Shown: in pieces, positions 40,325-48,114 of the stretch
Position numbering within the stretch: position 1 is the first letter of the stretch
How the letters are laid out: each line of letters begins with the position of its first letter
Source of the DNA: Novosphingopyxis iocasae
GTDB taxonomy: Bacteria; Pseudomonadota; Alphaproteobacteria; Sphingomonadales; Sphingomonadaceae
Direction: 5' to 3'
NCBI RefSeq assembly: GCF_014334095.1
Contig: NZ_CP060495.1
Coordinates: forward strand, 1,139,001-1,203,000
DNA: 64,000 nt
Notes under the pieces: model-generated
The model's database searches: none
What the model saw: only the letters and a program-made list of their open reading frames with translations
Told to the model about the DNA's origin: nothing
Translations under genes and position numbers: made by a program

Positions 40325-41263
40325 ATGGCTGCAGAGACGGGAGCAGGCACGGGAAAAGTCATCGCGATGACCGGCGCCACCGGGTTCGTCGGCGGCGCAA
40401 CGCTGAAGGCGGCGCTGGACGAAGGATACCGCGTGCGCGCGCTCACCCGGCGCGAACAGCCGCCGCGCGAAGGCGTCACATGGATCGCTGGCGATCTGGC
40501 CGACGATGCCGCGCTGGACCGGCTGTGCGACGGCGCTGAGGCGGTGATCCATATCGCGGGCGCAACCAACGCACCGAGCCGCGTGGGCTTCGAGCAAGGC
40601 AATGTCGCGGCGGTCGATCGCATGATCGCGGCGGCCAAAAATCAGGGCGTGCGCCGCTTCGTCCACGTCTCCTCGCTCGCCGCGCGCGAACCCAGGCTTT
40701 CGGTCTATGGAGAAACCAAGCTGGCAGGCGAGCGGCTGGTCGCCACCTCCATCCTGGACTGGACCGCGGTGCGGCCGCCCGCCGTCTACGGCCCCGGCGA
40801 CACCGAGATGCTGGAAATGTTCAAGATGGCGAAGCGCGGCCTGGTGTTCCTTCCGCCGCGCGGAAGGCTCTCGGCGGTCCATGTCGAAGATCTCGCCCGC
40901 CTGCTCGTCGCGCTGATTCCCGCTGGCGAGCGCACCATCGGCGAGATTTACGAGGTGGACGACGGCACCGACGGCGGTTGGACCCATCGTGGGTTCGCGC
41001 GCGCCATCGGCAAGGCGGTGGGGCGCAGGGTGGAAAGTGTCTCCATGCCGAAGCCGCTGTTGATGCTCGGCGGCTATGCGGACCGCCTGATCCGGCGCGG
41101 CAACGCCAAGCTGACGCCCGATCGCGCGCGCTATTTTGCCCATCCGGACTGGACCGTCGATCCGGCAAGACGCCCGCCGGCATCCGTCTGGCAGCCGCAG
41201 TTCGGCACCGAAGACGGACTGGCTGCGACGGCGCAATGGTATCGCCGGAAGGGCTGGCTCTGA
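40325..41263 (+). CDS. cerR: NAD(P)-dependent epimerase/SDR, probable 3-keto-sphinganine/ceramide reductase (CerR-like)
   Basis: The 312-residue protein is an extended short-chain dehydrogenase: Rossmann motif TGATGFVGG at 16-24 and the catalytic YGETK (Tyr128, Lys132), with Ser116/117 upstream in VHVSSLAAR. In Caulobacter, a gene of this family next to spt encodes the reductase of ceramide synthesis (CerR). Here it lies 80 bases before the acyl carrier protein and about 380 before spt on the same strand, a matching arrangement. The family call is firm; the ceramide role is inferred from the neighbours. Alternatives are an unrelated nucleotide-sugar or NAD-dependent reductase. Confidence 0.75.
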   Translation: MAAETGAGTGKVIAMTGATGFVGGATLKAALDEGYRVRALTRREQPPREGVTWIAGDLADDAALDRLCDGAEAVIHIAGATNAPSRVGFEQGNVAAVDRMIAAAKNQGVRRFVHVSSLAAREPRLSVYGETKLAGERLVATSILDWTAVRPPAVYGPGDTEMLEMFKMAKRGLVFLPPRGRLSAVHVEDLARLLVALIPAGERTIGEIYEVDDGTDGGWTHRGFARAIGKAVGRRVESVSMPKPLLMLGGYADRLIRRGNAKLTPDRARYFAHPDWTVDPARRPPASVWQPQFGTEDGLAATAQWYRRKGWL

Positions 41264-41345
41264 GGGCCCCTGCCCCCTCGCCGCCTTGACCGCGCCGCAA
41301 TCGCTTGCCAATCCCCGCCCACATTTATCGATGAAGGCAAAATCC

Positions 41346-41585
41346 ATGTCCGACCAATTGTTCGATGCGATCAAGGAAGAGATCGAGCCGTTCAACGCCA
41401 AGGGTGTCGAGGTGACGCGCGAAACCAGCTTCCAGAAGGATCTGGAATGGGACAGCCTGACCGTGATGGACTTCGTGGCCGCGATCGAAGACCGGTTCGA
41501 CATCGTCATCACCATGAACATGCAGGCCGAAATCGAAACCGTCGGCCAGCTGGTCGATGCGGTCGCCAAGCTGAAAGACGACTGA
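41346..41585 (+). CDS. Dedicated acyl carrier protein (AcpR-like)
   Basis: The 79-residue protein has the phosphopantetheine site LEWDSLTVMDF with Ser37, and the helical layout of an acyl carrier protein. It is not the fatty-acid-synthesis AcpP, whose motif is typically DSLDTVELVM and which sits with fabF. Bacterial sphingolipid loci use a private carrier beside spt. The start at 41346 has AAGG before it; an ATG at 41331 is possible. It lies 62 bases before spt and probably presents an acyl chain to Spt. Confidence 0.88.
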   Translation: MSDQLFDAIKEEIEPFNAKGVEVTRETSFQKDLEWDSLTVMDFVAAIEDRFDIVITMNMQAEIETVGQLVDAVAKLKDD

Positions 41586-41647
41586 CCGAGCCCCCCGCCC
41601 CGCGCTTGTCGAAGGGCCGTACTTCTTTTTGATCAAAGGACCGGGCC

Positions 41648-42880
41648 GTGACAGGCTTCGTCCGGATGGATGCAGGCTTCATGACCGATCTCTTTTCCAA
41701 ATTCGATTCGCTGATCGAACAGCGCGAGCAGTTGCTCTCCACCGGCCAGCGCGATCCGTTCTCGCTCGTCATGGAAGAGGTGAAATCGCCCACCGTGGCG
41801 GTGGTGAACGGCAAGGAGACGATCCTGCTCGGCACCTACAATTATATGGGCATGACCTTCGATCCCGACGTGATCGAGGCGGGCAAGAGCGCACTCGAGC
41901 AATTCGGATCGGGCACCACCGGCAGCCGCGTGCTCAACGGCACCTATCAGGGCCATAAGGAGTGCGAGGAGGCGCTGAAGGAATTTTACGGCTTCGAGCA
42001 TGCCATGGTCTTTTCGACCGGCTATCAGGCCAATCTGGGCATCATATCGACCATCGCGGGCAAGGACGATTACATCCTTCTGGATATCGACAGCCATGCG
42101 TCGATCTATGACGGCTGCGCGATGGGCAATGCACAGATCGTACCCTTCCGCCACAATGATATCGAGGCGCTGGAAAAGCGCCTGAAGCGCCTGCCGGAAG
42201 AGGCCGGCAAGCTCGTGGTGCTCGAAGGCGTCTATTCGATGCTGGGCGATGTCGCACCGCTGAAGGAGATGATCCGCGTTTCCAAGGAAGCGGGCGCGAT
42301 GGTGCTGGTGGACGAGGCGCATTCCATGGGTTTCATCGGCGAGAACGGCCGCGGCGTCGCCGAGGCGCAGGGCGTCATCGACGACGTCGATTTCATCATC
42401 GGCACGTTCAGCAAATCGGTGGGCACCGTCGGCGGGTTCTGCGTGTCGAACCACCCAAAGTTCGAGGTGATGCGCCTGGTCTGCCGCCCCTATGTCTTCA
42501 CCGCATCACTGCCCCCCAGCGTGGTCGCGACAGCCGCAACCTCGATCCGCAAGCTGATGCATGGCGGCAACAAGCGCGCGCATCTGTGGGAAAATTCGCG
42601 CAAGCTGCATGCGGGGCTGAAGGAACGCGGCTTCACGCTGGGCACGGATGAGCCGCAGAGCGCGATCATCGCCGTGATCATGCCCGATCTGGAGCGCGGC
42701 GCGGCGATGTGGGAAGCGCTGTTGAACGAGGGGCTGTATGTGAACCTTGCCCGCCCCCCTGCAACGCCTGCGAACATGACGCTGCTACGCTGTTCGCTCT
42801 GCGCCGAGCATTCCAGCGAACAGGTCGATGAGATACTGGGGATGTTCGAGCGCGCCGGTACGAAGGTCGGCGTGATCTGA
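41648..42880 (+). CDS. spt: Serine palmitoyltransferase
   Basis: Spt is a PLP-dependent alpha-oxoamine synthase that condenses L-serine with a fatty acyl thioester to 3-keto-sphinganine, the first step of sphingolipid synthesis. The 410-residue protein has LLGTYNYMGMTFDPDV, GSGTTGSRVLNGT, the PLP-contact DEAH (Asp222, His225), and the Schiff-base Lys256 in GTFSKSVGTVGGF. From memory the segments resemble the well-studied Sphingomonas paucimobilis enzyme closely, including YVFTASLPPSVVATA. The GTG at 41648 has AAAGGA before it; ATGs at 41666 and 41681 are alternatives. It ends in a strong bidirectional terminator. Confidence 0.96.
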   Translation: MTGFVRMDAGFMTDLFSKFDSLIEQREQLLSTGQRDPFSLVMEEVKSPTVAVVNGKETILLGTYNYMGMTFDPDVIEAGKSALEQFGSGTTGSRVLNGTYQGHKECEEALKEFYGFEHAMVFSTGYQANLGIISTIAGKDDYILLDIDSHASIYDGCAMGNAQIVPFRHNDIEALEKRLKRLPEEAGKLVVLEGVYSMLGDVAPLKEMIRVSKEAGAMVLVDEAHSMGFIGENGRGVAEAQGVIDDVDFIIGTFSKSVGTVGGFCVSNHPKFEVMRLVCRPYVFTASLPPSVVATAATSIRKLMHGGNKRAHLWENSRKLHAGLKERGFTLGTDEPQSAIIAVIMPDLERGAAMWEALLNEGLYVNLARPPATPANMTLLRCSLCAEHSSEQVDEILGMFERAGTKVGVI

Positions 42881-42904
42881 TTGTTATCCCGTTCTAGGGA
42901 TATG

Positions 42905-42944
42905 AAAAGACCGGGTTGCGACCATCTGGCGCCCCCGGTCTTTT
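42905..42944. terminator. Bidirectional terminator between spt and the DUF2141 gene
   Basis: AAAAGACCGGG pairs with CCCGGTCTTTT, so each strand has a T run after the stem. It ends both convergent genes. Confidence 0.92.
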
Positions 42945-42950
42945 ATGTTG

Positions 42951-43451
42951 TCAGGGATATTTCAGCTTGATGGTAACCGGCGTTACGCCGCTGCCAACCT
43001 TTACAGCCGCTTTGGAAACCGGCGGTTTGCCAAACGACCCTCCAGCAAGGAGCGCACCGAGCCCGATCGACGGGTTATTCGACATACCCCAGCCATCCTT
43101 GAACGGATCATCGTCGTCATTGCCGTTATAATCGTGGCGAACGCCAACGGCGTATGTGCCGGGCGCCGGCATCGGCATACAGAACTTCATGGTCTTGCCT
43201 GTTACCGGCGTATCGATCCGGTTGAGCCAGCGATCCTTCTTCAGCCAATCGCTTTCCAGAGCGCGATAGCTTACAACGCGCACGCGGTTCACCGCGCCTT
43301 TGAAGTTCGTGACGGTCACGAGCATCGCCGGACGCGAACCGTCGCATTTCGACATGTCGTTCGAAATTCGCTCGGCATATTGCGCCTGCGCCGGGACGGC
43401 CGCAAGCAGGACGGCACCGAACGCGGCCGCTGCTGCAATGGAATATTTCAT
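42951..43451 (-). CDS. Secreted DUF2141 protein
   Basis: The 166-residue protein has a signal peptide (cut near PAQAQ, residue 24) and a DUF2141-like domain: MLVTVTNFKGAVNRVRVVSY, PAPGTYAVGVRHDYNGNDDDDPFKDGWGMSNNP, and a final VTIKLKYP. The Asp/Asn-rich segment could bind calcium. It is divergent from lptF with about 130 bases between them. Function is unknown; a place in the envelope fits the signal peptide. It lies between the spt group and the permease pair. Confidence 0.82.
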   Translation of the reverse strand: MKYSIAAAAAFGAVLLAAVPAQAQYAERISNDMSKCDGSRPAMLVTVTNFKGAVNRVRVVSYRALESDWLKKDRWLNRIDTPVTGKTMKFCMPMPAPGTYAVGVRHDYNGNDDDDPFKDGWGMSNNPSIGLGALLAGGSFGKPPVSKAAVKVGSGVTPVTIKLKYP

Positions 43452-43578
43452 GGTTATCTCATTCCTCTTGGCTATATCGGCGGCACCCCGAACTCGGGTG
43501 CATTGATGATAAGGCCTTCTTGTCCACCATATATCAGCACCCATTGCGGCAGAATTTTGGAAATCGGACGACAATAAG

Positions 43579-44799
43579 TTGAAGTTGCTGACCGCCAACG
43601 ATCGCTACATCGCCAGGAAGATCGCGATTCCGCTGATCGCCACGCTGGTGATCGCGGCCATGCTGCTGGTGCTGGATCAGATGCTGCGGCTGTTCGATTT
43701 CGTCGCGGCGGAGGGCGGGCCGGTGGGCATTGTTTTCCGGATGCTGGCGAATCTTTTGCCCGAATATTTCTCCGTTGCGATCCCGCTGGCGCTGATGCTC
43801 GGCATCCTCCTTGCGTTTCGCGGGCTTGCCACCAGTTCGGAACTGGACGTGATGCGCGCCGTCGGCTTCAGCTATCGCCGGCTGCTGCGCGTGCCGTATT
43901 TCTACGCTTTTGGCCTGATCGCGGTAAACCTCACCATCGTCGGCTATCTGCAGCCCTATGCAGAATATTATTACGAACAGCTGCAATTCGATCTGCGTTC
44001 GGGCGCGCTGGGCGCATCGATCAAGGTGGGCCAGTTCAACAAGCTGGGCGATGACATCACATTGCGCGTCGAGCAAAGCCGCGACAATGGCACCGATCTC
44101 AGCGGGATCTTCGTCGATGTAGGCACGAAGAAAGGCGAACATTTCACCGCCACCGCGCAAAGCGGCCAGTTCCTCAGCACAGCCGATCCCAATCTTCTGC
44201 TGCTGCGACTGCGCAACGGCACCGCAATCCAGCAATCGCCCAATTTCGAAGGGACGCGCGTCCTGACGTTCCGCATGCAGGATCTGCCGATTGACCTGCC
44301 GGCCATGAAGCAGTTCCGCCTGCGCGGCGGCGTGGAGAATCAGGAGAACACATTTTTCGAGCTGCTGCGCGTGGCCAACGACCCCACCTACAGCAAGGAA
44401 ACGCGTGACGCGGCCTTTGCCAATTTTAATTTCCGCGCCGTGGAGCTGGCGGTGATGCTGCTGATCCCGCTGCTCGCCTTATCGCTCGCGGTGCCGCCGA
44501 AGCGATCGAGTTCCGCGCTTGGCGTGGTCATCTCGGTGGTCCTCATCGTCACCTATCACAAGGTGAACGAATTTGGCGAAGGCGTCGCCGCGCTCGGCCG
44601 TGTCAGCCCGTTCGTTTCGCTGTGGCTACCGTTCTTCGCATTCGCCGCGCTGATCATCTGGATGTACTACGTGCTCGCCTATGTGCCGGGCGGACAGCCG
44701 ATCGGCGCGATCGAAAAGCGGTTCGAGAAATTCGGCAAATGGTTGCGCCGTCGCTTCAAATTCGGGCAGCGGGACAAGAAGCATGAGGCCGCGGCATGA
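43579..44799 (+). CDS. lptF: LptF/LptG-family permease, first of a pair
   Basis: LptF forms with LptG the inner-membrane part of the lipopolysaccharide-extracting ABC transporter, together with LptB2 and LptC. The 406-residue protein has six membrane segments in the 3+3 pattern with a periplasmic jellyroll between (about 130-270). Two features support it: AVGFSYRRLLR, the coupling helix that contacts LptB, and YHKVNEFGEG in the last membrane half. The start is a TTG at 43579 with a weak site. The C-terminal tail is strongly basic. It is coupled to the next gene by a four-base overlap. The cargo may not be LPS. Confidence 0.9.
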   Translation: MKLLTANDRYIARKIAIPLIATLVIAAMLLVLDQMLRLFDFVAAEGGPVGIVFRMLANLLPEYFSVAIPLALMLGILLAFRGLATSSELDVMRAVGFSYRRLLRVPYFYAFGLIAVNLTIVGYLQPYAEYYYEQLQFDLRSGALGASIKVGQFNKLGDDITLRVEQSRDNGTDLSGIFVDVGTKKGEHFTATAQSGQFLSTADPNLLLLRLRNGTAIQQSPNFEGTRVLTFRMQDLPIDLPAMKQFRLRGGVENQENTFFELLRVANDPTYSKETRDAAFANFNFRAVELAVMLLIPLLALSLAVPPKRSSSALGVVISVVLIVTYHKVNEFGEGVAALGRVSPFVSLWLPFFAFAALIIWMYYVLAYVPGGQPIGAIEKRFEKFGKWLRRRFKFGQRDKKHEAAA

Positions 44800-45893
44800 A
44801 GCAGCTCGCCTTCTTTCCGTCTTCTTCCATGGCCTGGTACATGGCCAAGACGTTCCTGAAACGCGTCTTCGCCGTGCTGGCGATGCTGGTCATCATTCTG
44901 ATGAGCCTGGATCTTCTGCGTCAGAGCAGCGACATTCTGGCGGTGCCGGGCAATGGCAGCAGTCAGATCATCACCTATATCGCCTGGCGCACACCGCAGG
45001 TCGTAGCGCAGTTCCTGCCGTTCTCGGTACTTTTGGGCACGCTGATCATGCTGGCGGGCATGAACCAGAACAGCGAGATCGTGGCGATGAAGGCAGCGGG
45101 CCTTTCGGCGCATCAGATCCTGGCCCCGCTGGTGGTGACGGCGATCGGCATCGCCTTTCTCACCTTCATCTTCAACGATCATGTGCTGGCCCCCACCAGC
45201 GCCAAGCTGAAGGCCTGGCAAGCCGTCGATTATGCGCAAGTTCCGGGGCAAAGCGACATCCGCACCAGAGTGTGGGTGCTCGATGGGGACGATCTGATCT
45301 TTGCCAAGACGGTGATTGGCGGCGGGCCGTCCATGATCCTGAAGGACGTACGGATTAACGAGCGCGTGAACGGCGAACTGACATCCGTCACTCAGGGTCC
45401 GGTTGCGCGCTGGACCGATGACGGCTGGACGCTGAACGATGCCACCACCTTCACCGTGGCGAACGCCGCCACCAGCACCGCACCGATAGTCCGGTTCGGG
45501 CAAGGACTGGAGCCCAGCCGGTTCACGATCAGTTCGCTCGATGCCGACAGCCTGGGTTTCGCAGCCCTGCGCGAGGCAATCGATGCGCAGAAAGCTGCCG
45601 GTCGGCCAGTTGAGGGCGCAGAGGCTGCCTGGTGGCACAAGCTATCAGGCCCCCTCGCCTCCATCCTCATGCCGCTGTTGGGATCGATCGCCGGCTTCGG
45701 CCTTGCGCGCGCGGGCAAGACCTTCGTGCGCGTCGTGATCGGCATGGCACTGGGCTTCACCTATTTCGTGGTCGATAATTTCGCGCTCGCGATGGGCAAT
45801 CTGGGCGCTTACGATCCCTTCATCGCCGCCTGGGCGCCGTTTTTCCTGTTCCTCCTGCTGGGCGAGACGGTACTGATACGCTCTGAGGAATAG
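44796..45893 (+). CDS. lptG: LptF/LptG-family permease, second of a pair
   Basis: The 365-residue partner has the same 3+3 membrane layout and periplasmic domain (about 130-260). The coupling-helix region reads MKAAGLSAHQIL. It has LptG features such as FLPFSVLLGTL and the DNFALAMG segment in the last helices. It overlaps lptF by ATGA and ends in a hairpin without a T run. lptB, lptC and lptA are not in the window. In a lineage that makes glycosphingolipids in place of LPS, the pair next to spt may move sphingolipids. Confidence 0.9.
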   Translation: MKQLAFFPSSSMAWYMAKTFLKRVFAVLAMLVIILMSLDLLRQSSDILAVPGNGSSQIITYIAWRTPQVVAQFLPFSVLLGTLIMLAGMNQNSEIVAMKAAGLSAHQILAPLVVTAIGIAFLTFIFNDHVLAPTSAKLKAWQAVDYAQVPGQSDIRTRVWVLDGDDLIFAKTVIGGGPSMILKDVRINERVNGELTSVTQGPVARWTDDGWTLNDATTFTVANAATSTAPIVRFGQGLEPSRFTISSLDADSLGFAALREAIDAQKAAGRPVEGAEAAWWHKLSGPLASILMPLLGSIAGFGLARAGKTFVRVVIGMALGFTYFVVDNFALAMGNLGAYDPFIAAWAPFFLFLLLGETVLIRSEE

Positions 45894-45898
45894 GCTTC

Positions 45899-45939
45899 GG
45901 TGGTGGAGGCCCCGATCGCTGATCGATGCCTCCTTCACC
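45899..45939 (+). terminator. Possible hairpin after lptG
   Basis: GGTGGTGGAGGC pairs with GCCTCCTTCACC (ten of twelve) shortly after the lptG stop. There is no T run, so it is at best a weak terminator. Confidence 0.4.
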
Positions 45940-46079
45940 TTACGTCAATCACGACAGAAATATGGTGATCGATAGAGGATGCGGCCGTAAATGCGCCGCA
46001 AAGCCTTATTATAAAAAACACTGGCGTCGCCGGCCCTGCCGTGCGGCGCATTGAAGAACTAGGGATTAGGACGAAGGCT

Positions 46080-46859
46080 ATGGCCAGCGCGGACACCGCA
46101 TCGAGCAATTTCTGGAACCGGTCGCATTATCTGGATCGCATGAACCTGCGAGAACTGATCGTGGCCTATTTCCAGCATTACACGATCATATCCTATCTGC
46201 TGCTGACCGCGGCCAGCGTCGCTGTGTTCGTTTTCTATCCCGCCAGCCCGCTGGCGACTGCCGGCGCAGTGCTTGCAGCAGTCGTGATCTATCCGCTGGC
46301 GTGGTATCTGCTGCACCGCTTCGTCCTACACGGGCAGTGGATGTACAAGCGCAAAATGTTCGCAAAGACCTGGAAGCGCATCCATTACGATCATCATCAG
46401 GATCCCAACCATCTCGAAGTGCTTTTCGGCGCCCTTCACACCACGTTGCCCACGATTGCAGTGGCGACGCTGCCGGTGGGCTATCTGATTGGCGGCATCG
46501 GCGGCGCGGCGGCCGCGTTTGCCACGGGCCTTCTCGCCACTTGCTATTATGAATTCGTGCACTGCATGCAGCATCTGGCGTTCAAGCCGAAGAGCAAGCT
46601 CATCTCTTATATGAAGCAGCGGCATCTGGAGCACCACTTTCACCACGAGAGCGGCAATTACGGAATCACCAACTATGGTTGGGACAAGATTTTCCGCACT
46701 TATTATCACCGCAAGGACATTCCCAAGCGCAGCGCGACGGTGTTCAACCTGGGCTATGACGAGGAAGTGGCGAAGAGCTATCCCTGGGTGAAGGAGCTGT
46801 CCGGTGGCATTGCGTCGGGACACCCCCGCCGCCGCTCGCAGGTGAAGAGCGACGCCTGA
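46080..46859 (+). CDS. Fatty acid hydroxylase (sterol desaturase) superfamily membrane enzyme
   Basis: The 259-residue protein has four or so membrane segments and the eight-plus-histidine di-iron signature: HRFVLH, HYDHHQDPNH, HCMQH and HLEHHFHH. This is the PF04116 superfamily, which holds fatty acid 2-hydroxylases acting on ceramides as well as sterol oxidases. Sphingomonad glycosphingolipids carry 2-hydroxymyristic acid, so a ceramide or acyl 2-hydroxylase fits the context. Start ATG at 46080 with AGGACGAAGG ahead; a GTG at 46041 is possible. The neighbour downstream is the candidate ceramide synthase. Confidence 0.85.
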   Translation: MASADTASSNFWNRSHYLDRMNLRELIVAYFQHYTIISYLLLTAASVAVFVFYPASPLATAGAVLAAVVIYPLAWYLLHRFVLHGQWMYKRKMFAKTWKRIHYDHHQDPNHLEVLFGALHTTLPTIAVATLPVGYLIGGIGGAAAAFATGLLATCYYEFVHCMQHLAFKPKSKLISYMKQRHLEHHFHHESGNYGITNYGWDKIFRTYYHRKDIPKRSATVFNLGYDEEVAKSYPWVKELSGGIASGHPRRRSQVKSDA

Positions 46860-46883
46860 GGCTTGCTGAAATGGTCCCGTTGT

Positions 46884-46954
46884 GCTCCTGCGAAAACTGG
46901 AGCCCGGGGCCTTCAGAGCTTCGCCGAACCCCGGGCTTCTGCATGCGCAGGAGC
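46884..46954 (+). repeat. Palindromic intergenic repeat covering the next gene's ribosome-binding site
   Basis: Two nested inverted pairs: GCTCCTGCG (46884-46892) with CGCAGGAGC (46946-46954), and GCCCGGGG (46902-46909) with CCCCGGGC (46929-46936). The motif CTCCTGCG...GCAGGAG looks like a dispersed REP-type element. The downstream arm contains AGGAG, the ribosome-binding site of the gene that starts at 46963. Confidence 0.75.
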
Positions 46955-46962
46955 CCTTTTTC

Positions 46963-48114
46963 GTGACCGACCTTCAAATCATCCCCGTCACCGACAAGCA
47001 CGGTGAGAATGATTTTATCGAGCTACCCTATCGTCTCTATCAGGACGATCCGGCCTGGGTGCCGCCGCTGCGCAGCGATGTTCGCGAACTGCTGAACCGC
47101 AAGAAGAACCCGTTTTTCGATCATGCCCGCATGCAGTTGTTTCTGGCCAAGCGGGGCAGCAAAGTGGTGGGGCGGATTTCCGCGCATATCGACGACCTGG
47201 CTCTCGCTCAGCCGCCCGAACAGGGCATGGGACCGGGTGTCGGCAATTTCGGCATGCTGGAGGTTGAGGACGAAGCCGCCGCTCATGCGCTGATCCATGC
47301 AGCCGAAGAATGGCTGCGCGGTCACGGCATGAGCCGCGCGCTAGGCCCCCTTTCGCTGTCGATCTGGGATGAGCCGGGCCTGCTGACAAAGGGCCAGGAC
47401 CATAGCCCCACGGTCATGATGGGCCATCATAAAGCCTCCTATGAAAGATGGGTCGAGGCTGCCGGATACCGCCCCGTCAAACAGCTGAGCACATGGGAAC
47501 TCGACATTGCCCAGGACTTCCCGCCACTGATTGACCGCATCATTCAGTCTGGCGAGCGCAGCAGCCGCATCCATGTGCGCAAGGTAGATAAGTCGAAATT
47601 CGACGAGGAAGCGGGGATCATCCTCAATATCCTTAACGATGCCTGGTCGGACAATTGGGGCTACGTGCCGCTGACCGATAGAGAGATCGCCTATGCCGGC
47701 AAGAAGCTGAAGCCAATCGTGAAGGAAGACCTTATCCGCATTGCGGAGGTGGAGGGTCGACCGGTCGCCTTCATGATGACGCTGCCGGATTTGAATGAGC
47801 CGCTGAAGGGCATGAACGGTTCGCTATGGCCGTTTAATTGGGCGAAGTTGCTGCTTTGGCTGCGCAATCCACGGGTGCGCACCATGCGCGTGCCGCTGAT
47901 GGGGGTACTGAAGGAATATCAGGGCACCCGTCTTGCCAGCCAGCTCGCTTTCATGATGATCGAATATATCCGCCGCGCCTCGGTAGCCCATTACGGCGCG
48001 ACGCGCGGCGAGATCGGCTGGATTCTTGACGACAATCAAGGAATGATCGCAATCGCCGATGCGATCGAGAGCCGCGTGAACCGCGTCTACACCGTCTACG
48101 AAAAGGCGCTCTAG
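46963..48114 (+). CDS. GNAT-fold acyltransferase, probable bacterial ceramide synthase (bCerS-like)
   Basis: The 383-residue protein starts at GTG 46963, nine bases after AGGAG. It has a duplicated GNAT-like layout, with LSLSIWDEPGLL and YHKASYERWVEAAGY-type segments and a C-terminal YQGTRLASQLAFMMIEYIRR resembling the acyl-CoA-binding helix. Similar proteins encoded beside spt in Caulobacter were shown to be ceramide synthase (bCerS), N-acylating the long-chain base. Here it lies about 4 kb from spt, after lptFG and the hydroxylase. The GNAT-fold call is fairly good; the ceramide role rests on context. Alternative: an unrelated N-acyltransferase of unknown substrate. Confidence 0.75.
   Translation: MTDLQIIPVTDKHGENDFIELPYRLYQDDPAWVPPLRSDVRELLNRKKNPFFDHARMQLFLAKRGSKVVGRISAHIDDLALAQPPEQGMGPGVGNFGMLEVEDEAAAHALIHAAEEWLRGHGMSRALGPLSLSIWDEPGLLTKGQDHSPTVMMGHHKASYERWVEAAGYRPVKQLSTWELDIAQDFPPLIDRIIQSGERSSRIHVRKVDKSKFDEEAGIILNILNDAWSDNWGYVPLTDREIAYAGKKLKPIVKEDLIRIAEVEGRPVAFMMTLPDLNEPLKGMNGSLWPFNWAKLLLWLRNPRVRTMRVPLMGVLKEYQGTRLASQLAFMMIEYIRRASVAHYGATRGEIGWILDDNQGMIAIADAIESRVNRVYTVYEKAL

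Follow-up and report, generated by a model that had tools for sequence, protein, structure and literature searches.

Are the genes for making, hydroxylating and exporting a sphingolipid gathered at one place in the genome of Novosphingopyxis iocasae? We addressed this question for a locus of 7.8 kb at positions 40325–48114 of the window, the whole stretch of 64,000 nucleotides that was analyzed. The locus contains cerR, acpR, spt, lptF, lptG, a gene for a fatty acid hydroxylase (FAH, PF04116) and cerS, which encodes a GNAT-fold protein. All seven lie on the + strand; spt and lptF are separated by a DUF2141 gene on the - strand. The route of sphingolipids to the outer membrane has been called unknown (PMC11324152, PMC11087976), and no sphingolipid flippase or transporter had been identified as of PMC11087976. 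Judging from the comparisons of sequence and gene order described below, we consider it quite probable that the locus is a gene set for ceramide synthesis, hydroxylation of the N-acyl chain and, by way of its inner-membrane permeases, export, in a bacterium that has no lpxC, a gene for lipid A, and that seems to be devoid of lipopolysaccharide. Within this set FAH looks like a regular, so far unremarked partner of bacterial ceramide synthase. The genes are as follows (ORF, open reading frame).

40325..41263, + strand: cerR-like reductase of the short-chain dehydrogenase/reductase (SDR) type, 312 amino acids; PF01370, 7e-26
41331..41585 (possible start ATG 41346), + strand: acpR, specialised acyl carrier protein (ACP); PF00550 (PP-binding), 1.6e-9
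41681..42880 (ORF open from 41648), + strand: spt, serine palmitoyltransferase, 399 amino acids; NF047603, 804.5 bits
42951..43451, - strand: DUF2141 protein; PF09912, 1.9e-14
43579..44799, + strand: lptF of the spt-linked (LptF2) type; PF03739, 1e-58
44796..45893, + strand: lptG of the spt-linked (LptG2) type; PF03739, 2e-73
46080..46859 from ATG 46080 (ORF open from 46041), + strand: FAH, Scs7/FA2H-like hydroxylase, 259 amino acids; PF04116, 1.2e-18
46963..48114 (ORF open from 46882), + strand: cerS, GNAT-fold bacterial ceramide synthase (bCerS), 383 amino acids; weak Pfam match, 1.6e-5

All seven + strand genes that an earlier note on this DNA had proposed were recovered in place and orientation, and its assignments of Spt, ACP, CerR, bCerS and LptF/LptG hold in both profile and pairwise matches. 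The DUF2141 gene is absent from that note. Spt exceeded the NCBIfam NF047603 cut-off of 670 bits, identifying it as an alphaproteobacterial serine palmitoyltransferase, and shares 53% identity with its counterpart in Caulobacter RHG1 (locus L169) and 47% with that of E. coli BL21. The ACP carries the DSL serine motif. CerR is homologous to its positional partner in RHG1 (39%, 3e-48; 35% to E. coli BL21) and is found beside acpR and spt at the same position. Homology of CerS extends over the full length both to its RHG1 partner (41% over 383 amino acids, 1e-93) and to YghO of E. coli BL21 (39% over 387 amino acids), as expected for bCerS; a search of the PDB gave no relative of CerS, with one chance-level match at 0.052. 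Identities of the other products to RHG1 are 38% for the ACP, 26% for LptF, 28% for LptG and 26% for the DUF2141 protein. That the reductase and the GNAT protein would match CerR and bCerS of Caulobacter was confirmed reciprocally for the RHG1 positional partners: a reverse search covering the 64 kb window recovered both, the next best matches having E values of 0.9 and 4.0. The own genome, searched as one contig of 3.19 Mb, contains one GNAT match at E <= 1e-10.

Gene order was compared in 100 loci of the order and family, 39 loci of the class and 81 further loci, each of the latter being a stretch of up to about 21 kb surrounding the GNAT gene, or the BL21 locus. The order and family set was partly picked on FAH (40 of 100 loci), and the class sample is the fair one. 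As the earlier note had anticipated, the block recurs in the order, in the class and in the named Caulobacter loci with some rearrangement and is co-conserved with spt. The window order of cerR, acp, spt, lptF, lptG and GNAT was also found in Caulobacter and Phenylobacterium (L164, L169, L171, L172), whose loci were reached via a distant GNAT alignment. Among the 81 further loci LptG was present in 55, LptF in 49, Spt in 45, CerR in 39 and FAH in 13 (one a weak antisense match). Of the 34 spt-centred loci of the own family, some have the block in one piece and others have it split; by manual reading, 16 carry lptF/lptG within the stretch around spt (about 20 kb or less). Where spt lies apart, lptF, lptG, FAH and GNAT mostly stay together; FAH and GNAT stand alone in L085 and L103.

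The hydroxylase had been the weakest link of the earlier reading and became its best-supported new part. The sole credible relative of FAH by sequence in the PDB is yeast Scs7 (4zr1; 3.4e-8, 23% identity), which hydroxylates very-long-chain fatty acids of ceramide. An AlphaFold model (predicted local distance difference test, pLDDT, 91.3; predicted template modeling score, pTM, 0.86) matched Scs7 in Foldseek at 3.5e-4 and in VIA with a Z of 15.6 over 189 residues at 3.2 A, the next unrelated row scoring 3.8; no other hydroxylase family appeared in the Foldseek and VIA lists of the model. Ten histidines (H79, H84, H102, H105, H106, H161, H165, H182, H185, H186) are invariant in 92 sequences, an alignment that left out L144, which has a stop, and short sequences; 72 of the 92 were used for the structure alignment. 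Manual reading of the alignment places all ten of these metal-site residues on histidines of Scs7, so that FAH has both the di-metal site and the fold of the Scs7/FA2H type. It differs from yeast Scs7 and mammalian FA2H in that no cytochrome b5 domain was found in it by Pfam. FA2H-like 2-hydroxylases tied to sphingolipids have been described in myxobacteria (PMC10002949, citing Ring 2009); FAH is likened to these by description. FAH is most likely a ceramide N-acyl hydroxylase, to judge by its fold, site and location, and provides a concrete candidate gene for hydroxy-ceramide in these bacteria. FA2H is a human disease gene (PMC10002949); in FAH it has a small bacterial relative that lies inside the locus of its own pathway.

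The tie between FAH and cerS was determined in a class sample of 289 genomes (FAH at E < 1e-60, GNAT at E <= 1e-10). FAH was found in 30 genomes and cerS in 41, and all 30 FAH genomes are among the 41 (Fisher p = 6e-32, relatedness ignored). Reading from coordinates, FAH adjoins cerS in 27 of the 30; in the exceptions (G406, G537, G634) it lies beside lptF/lptG instead, with spt on the same stretch in two. Where a locus holds both genes, FAH is located directly 5' of cerS on the same strand in 49/50 order and family loci, 26/26 class loci and 12/12 further loci. The one exception, L111, has a MipA gene between FAH and GNAT. Strong FAH matches were counted in 118 of the 298 genomes of the family sample; genomes with weak matches only (3 of 31 in the order, 14 of 132 in the family, 5 of 35 in the class) were dropped from these counts. 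One genome, G014 (L014), has FAH with only a weak Spt match, in an assembly of 800 contigs with 6% contamination, perhaps an assembly gap.

The class-wide pairing rules out a chance neighborhood of genes, and it bears on another assignment of FAH. CrtZ, a carotenoid ring hydroxylase, is in the same Pfam family, and FAH could be an enzyme of this type, or a sterol-type enzyme, that lies here by chance; paper titles report that sphingomonads make hydroxylated carotenoids. We consider this very unlikely given the adjacency to cerS just described. Moreover, none of the ten window proteins scanned is a carotenoid gene product, and Scs7 is the closest solved relative of FAH.

What takes the place of FAH in relatives without it? 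In own-family loci with linked lptG and GNAT and no FAH, the slot held an antisense gene of one blastp cluster in 12 of 14 cases; no slot gene was present in the other two (L026, L043). The slot genes scanned, five from the own family (L019, L025, L041, L044, L045) and the outsider L057, are PF00487 fatty acid desaturases. We searched 118 genomes of the order for both types. The slot gene was present in 96 of them (E <= 1e-20), FAH in 28 (E < 1e-80): 20 genomes carry FAH only, 88 the slot type only, eight both and two neither, so that 108 of 118 have exactly one hydroxylase type. For the 95 genomes with a completeness of 90% or more and a contamination of 5% or less, the corresponding numbers are 16, 74, 5 and 0. 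The two genomes with neither are, by elimination, G104 (69% complete) and G106 (67%). In the own family the slot gene lies within about 2.2 kb of lptG in 27 of 32 slot-type genomes by manual reading and elsewhere in five, one of which (G071) is a more distant match.

Relatedness was accounted for by a pair test on an Spt gene tree of 61 rows (60 order loci and the window). Ten independent pairs gave on average 6.8 with opposite states, 0 with the same and 3.2 with no difference (median p 0.016, range 0.016–0.031). The nearest Spt relatives of the window carry the desaturase-family gene instead of FAH. Genome G039 has the slot gene as well as FAH, and there FAH is separated from lptF/lptG and cerS (L113). 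In our reading, a single step has had its hydroxylase exchanged for the other one repeatedly. FAH could instead have been gained horizontally in recent times, but in its own tree (quick method, with 26 of the 77 inner branches open) it clusters by family and order, which favors inheritance with repeated replacement.

The alternation also has a bearing on the substrate. PF04116 spans enzymes with different substrates, and yeast Sur2 hydroxylates the long-chain base at C4. FAH might thus act on the long-chain base, or on a free fatty acid before cerS, and not on the N-acyl chain of ceramide; the position of the hydroxyl is unreadable from the sequence, and an enzyme that supplies hydroxy-acyl substrate could also be encoded directly before cerS. 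We regard this as unlikely. By sequence and fold the sole credible PDB match is Scs7, though few relatives may be solved, and FAH alternates with the family of DesA desaturases/hydroxylases to which the ceramide N-acyl hydroxylase of Caulobacter, CC_0202, has been assigned (PMC11324152). CC_0202 has the same proposed reaction as FAH, and its family fills the slot in own-family members without FAH. The two types belong to unrelated Pfam families (PF00487 vs PF04116), and the slot gene is likened to CC_0202 by family only.

We also assessed to which type the permeases belong. LptG passes the NCBIfam LptG cut-off (290.5 vs 240), LptF falls just under that for LptF (223.9 vs 230), and LptG matches LptG in the PDB at 7e-24. 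This locus contains the only two PF03739 genes of the own genome, in which LpxC was not found. Nor was LpxC found in any of the 118 order genomes, whereas a control search of 14 genomes detected it in four, E. coli and Caulobacter included. Since these order genomes sample eight families, none with LpxC, loss of lipid A older than the own family is suggested. A strong Spt match (E < 1e-100) was present in 112 of the 118; the other six were weaker, five of them in genomes at most 74% complete. Exactly two PF03739 genes were found in 94 genomes, another number above zero in 15 and none in nine.

In a tree of 65 LptF and LptG sequences the window LptF falls into a clade of 25 rows (support 100/99) and the window LptG into one of 24 rows (100/98), each including one duplicate Dongia row. 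All members have spt or GNAT close by in their loci, except for an extra LptF of Caulobacter RHG1 (L262). An Emcibacter locus groups in this tree with one of the families of the order, which, together with the sphingomonad-like lipid genes, fits the order being Sphingomonadales of GTDB. Outside these clades are LptF copies of Caulobacter UNC279 and Belnapia and LptG copies of two Caulobacter, Phenylobacterium, Belnapia, Roseospira and Roseovarius, which from their place in the tree presumably serve lipopolysaccharide (LPS). The two Caulobacter genomes searched keep such a second, non-spt pair, in contrast to the single pair of the own genome. The window pair thus groups with the spt-linked LptF2/LptG2 apart from other alphaproteobacterial Lpt pairs and outside the non-spt Caulobacter group. 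The proposal that sphingomonads had put an LPS permease pair to new use was not borne out and is ruled out by this tree; the lineage appears to have kept the sphingolipid-type exporter and lost the LPS type. We lean toward the combined view that alphaproteobacterial ceramide synthase has a dedicated hydroxylase partner, either Scs7-like or DesA-like, the two having been swapped many times and often within one slot of the locus, and that Sphingomonadales dropped the LPS exporter when they lost LPS while a pre-existing LptF2/LptG2 was kept. The lineage lacks LpxC and in most genomes has a single sphingolipid-type Lpt pair. It makes the route of sphingolipids to the outer membrane directly testable, because the pair has no lipid A to carry.

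Several observations weigh against this account of the locus. In class loci lptF/lptG are often separate from, or antisense to, FAH-cerS, and 11 of the 41 class cerS genomes (one a weak match) are without FAH. The eight order genomes with both hydroxylase types do not fit a strict alternation; outside the own family the slot-type gene is often away from lptG, and desaturase-family genes may have other jobs there. A P450 fatty acid 2-hydroxylase is known from Sphingomonas (PMC10002949), therefore 2-hydroxy acids can arise another way. The spt-linked LptF/G of E. coli BL21, which sit on long branches, fall among gammaproteobacterial sequences and outside the alphaproteobacterial clade. Three of the nine genomes without PF03739 are at least 93% complete (G009, G022, G045), and five of the nine belong to family f2 (G009, G022, G033, G037, G042), some of them incomplete. 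In four of these five the Spt match is strong and runs over the full length or nearly so; in G042 it is partial. Some relatives, e.g. family f2, may therefore export without an LptF/LptG pair, and these f2 genomes lower our confidence in the reading by a hair. Locus L071 has cerR, acp, spt, DUF2141 and GNAT without lptF/lptG.

Order genomes with Spt and no PF03739 match would likewise fit permeases that carry a different lipid of the outer membrane, or several kinds of cargo, and that sit in the locus for historical reasons. As the sole pair in the own genome they must serve every such need, and sphingolipid transport is a proposal of PMC11324152 that was not investigated there. We nevertheless find other cargo rather improbable: LpxC is missing, and the pair clades with spt-linked copies whose genomes contain a further pair. 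In addition, mutants of CC_1156 (LptF2) show a cofitness of 0.60 with CC_1159, a ceramide-decorating gene (PMC11324152).

A locus of this kind is already known, and most of the gene set has been described in print. The Caulobacter crescentus cluster CC_1168–CC_1152 has the same order of cerR, acpR, spt, the CC_1157 position, lptF2, lptG2 and cerS (PMC11324152; PMC9386255), and its LptC2, LptF2 and LptG2 (LptF2/G2 being CC_1156/1155) were named probable sphingolipid transporters, transport itself not being investigated (PMC11324152). The idea of the earlier note that one locus joins synthesis, hydroxylation and transport is supported, but the join of synthesis and transport was already in print for Caulobacter. 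Compared with that cluster the window stretch is without aasR and the ceramide-phosphoglycerate genes, and relative to the named Caulobacter loci it adds FAH between lptG and cerS. The genes acpR, spt, cerR and cerS are likewise close, listed with nearby locus tags, in S. wittichii (Swit_3897-3908) and S. paucimobilis (DRN02_007875-007910), with aasR distant (PMC9386255); orthologs in S. wittichii and Zymomonas have been described as scattered over the genomes, with six regions in S. wittichii (PMC11324152). The available parts of these two papers mention no PF04116 hydroxylase at the S. wittichii and S. paucimobilis loci. In the open literature available to us, the closest accounts of a hydroxylase at bacterial ceramide loci or of Lpt transport in sphingomonads were PMC11324152 and, in PMC10002949, the P450 enzyme and the myxobacterial hydroxylases. 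In it we found neither the FAH/desaturase partnership nor the single sphingolipid-type pair in an order lacking LpxC.

For the preferred reading of a joint synthesis, hydroxylation and export locus, the following pathway can be proposed. Spt would join serine to an acyl chain carried on AcpR, and CerS would N-acylate the resulting 3-keto base. FAH, as a membrane di-metal enzyme like yeast Scs7, would hydroxylate the N-acyl chain, most likely at C2 and at the cytoplasmic face; action after CerS is favored because Scs7 acts on ceramide, according to its PDB name. The lipid would then be flipped, reduced by CerR and given its head group. Finally LptF/LptG, together with an ATPase encoded elsewhere, would draw the finished sphingolipid from the inner membrane towards an Lpt-type bridge. 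In Caulobacter, Spt and bCerS are cytoplasmic and CerR is periplasmic (PMC11087976). The start of the window CerR (window 40325–40400) shows the Rossmann motif GATGF(L/V)G almost at once and no obvious signal peptide. The same early motif without an obvious signal peptide was seen in the Caulobacterales loci L169, L172 and L171, though Caulobacter CerR is reported to be periplasmic.

A protein of about 520 amino acids is encoded between lptG and FAH/GNAT in 26 loci (e.g. L056:7027-8586, L097:7998-9617). With a sub-threshold MatE match in one of two scanned, it is a candidate sphingolipid flippase. The window slot between lptG and FAH contains no such gene. In Caulobacter, CC_1166 has been called a potential flippase (PMC11324152).

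The spt cluster of E. coli BL21(DE3) (L238) was found to carry an additional lptG-lptF pair, distinct from the canonical pair (L268).

Many loci of the order, and two of the three Caulobacter loci, keep the DUF2141 gene at its position between spt and lptF. Directly 5' of lptF and antisense to it, the gene was found in 47/76 order and family loci, 5/27 class loci and 13/43 named loci holding lptF. It was detected before lptF in L164, L169 and L171 and not in L172; the Caulobacter loci L164 and L169 thus share it at the position of CC_1157, unlike L172. From its position CC_1157 is probably a DUF2141 gene. It has been called probably unrelated (PMC11324152), which seems doubtful because DUF2141 is conserved at this place.

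Upstream of the cluster lies an obg-like GTPase gene, named from sequence reading, whose partners recur 5' of cerR in several loci. Downstream, a gene for an exported protein and then xthA follow on the - strand.

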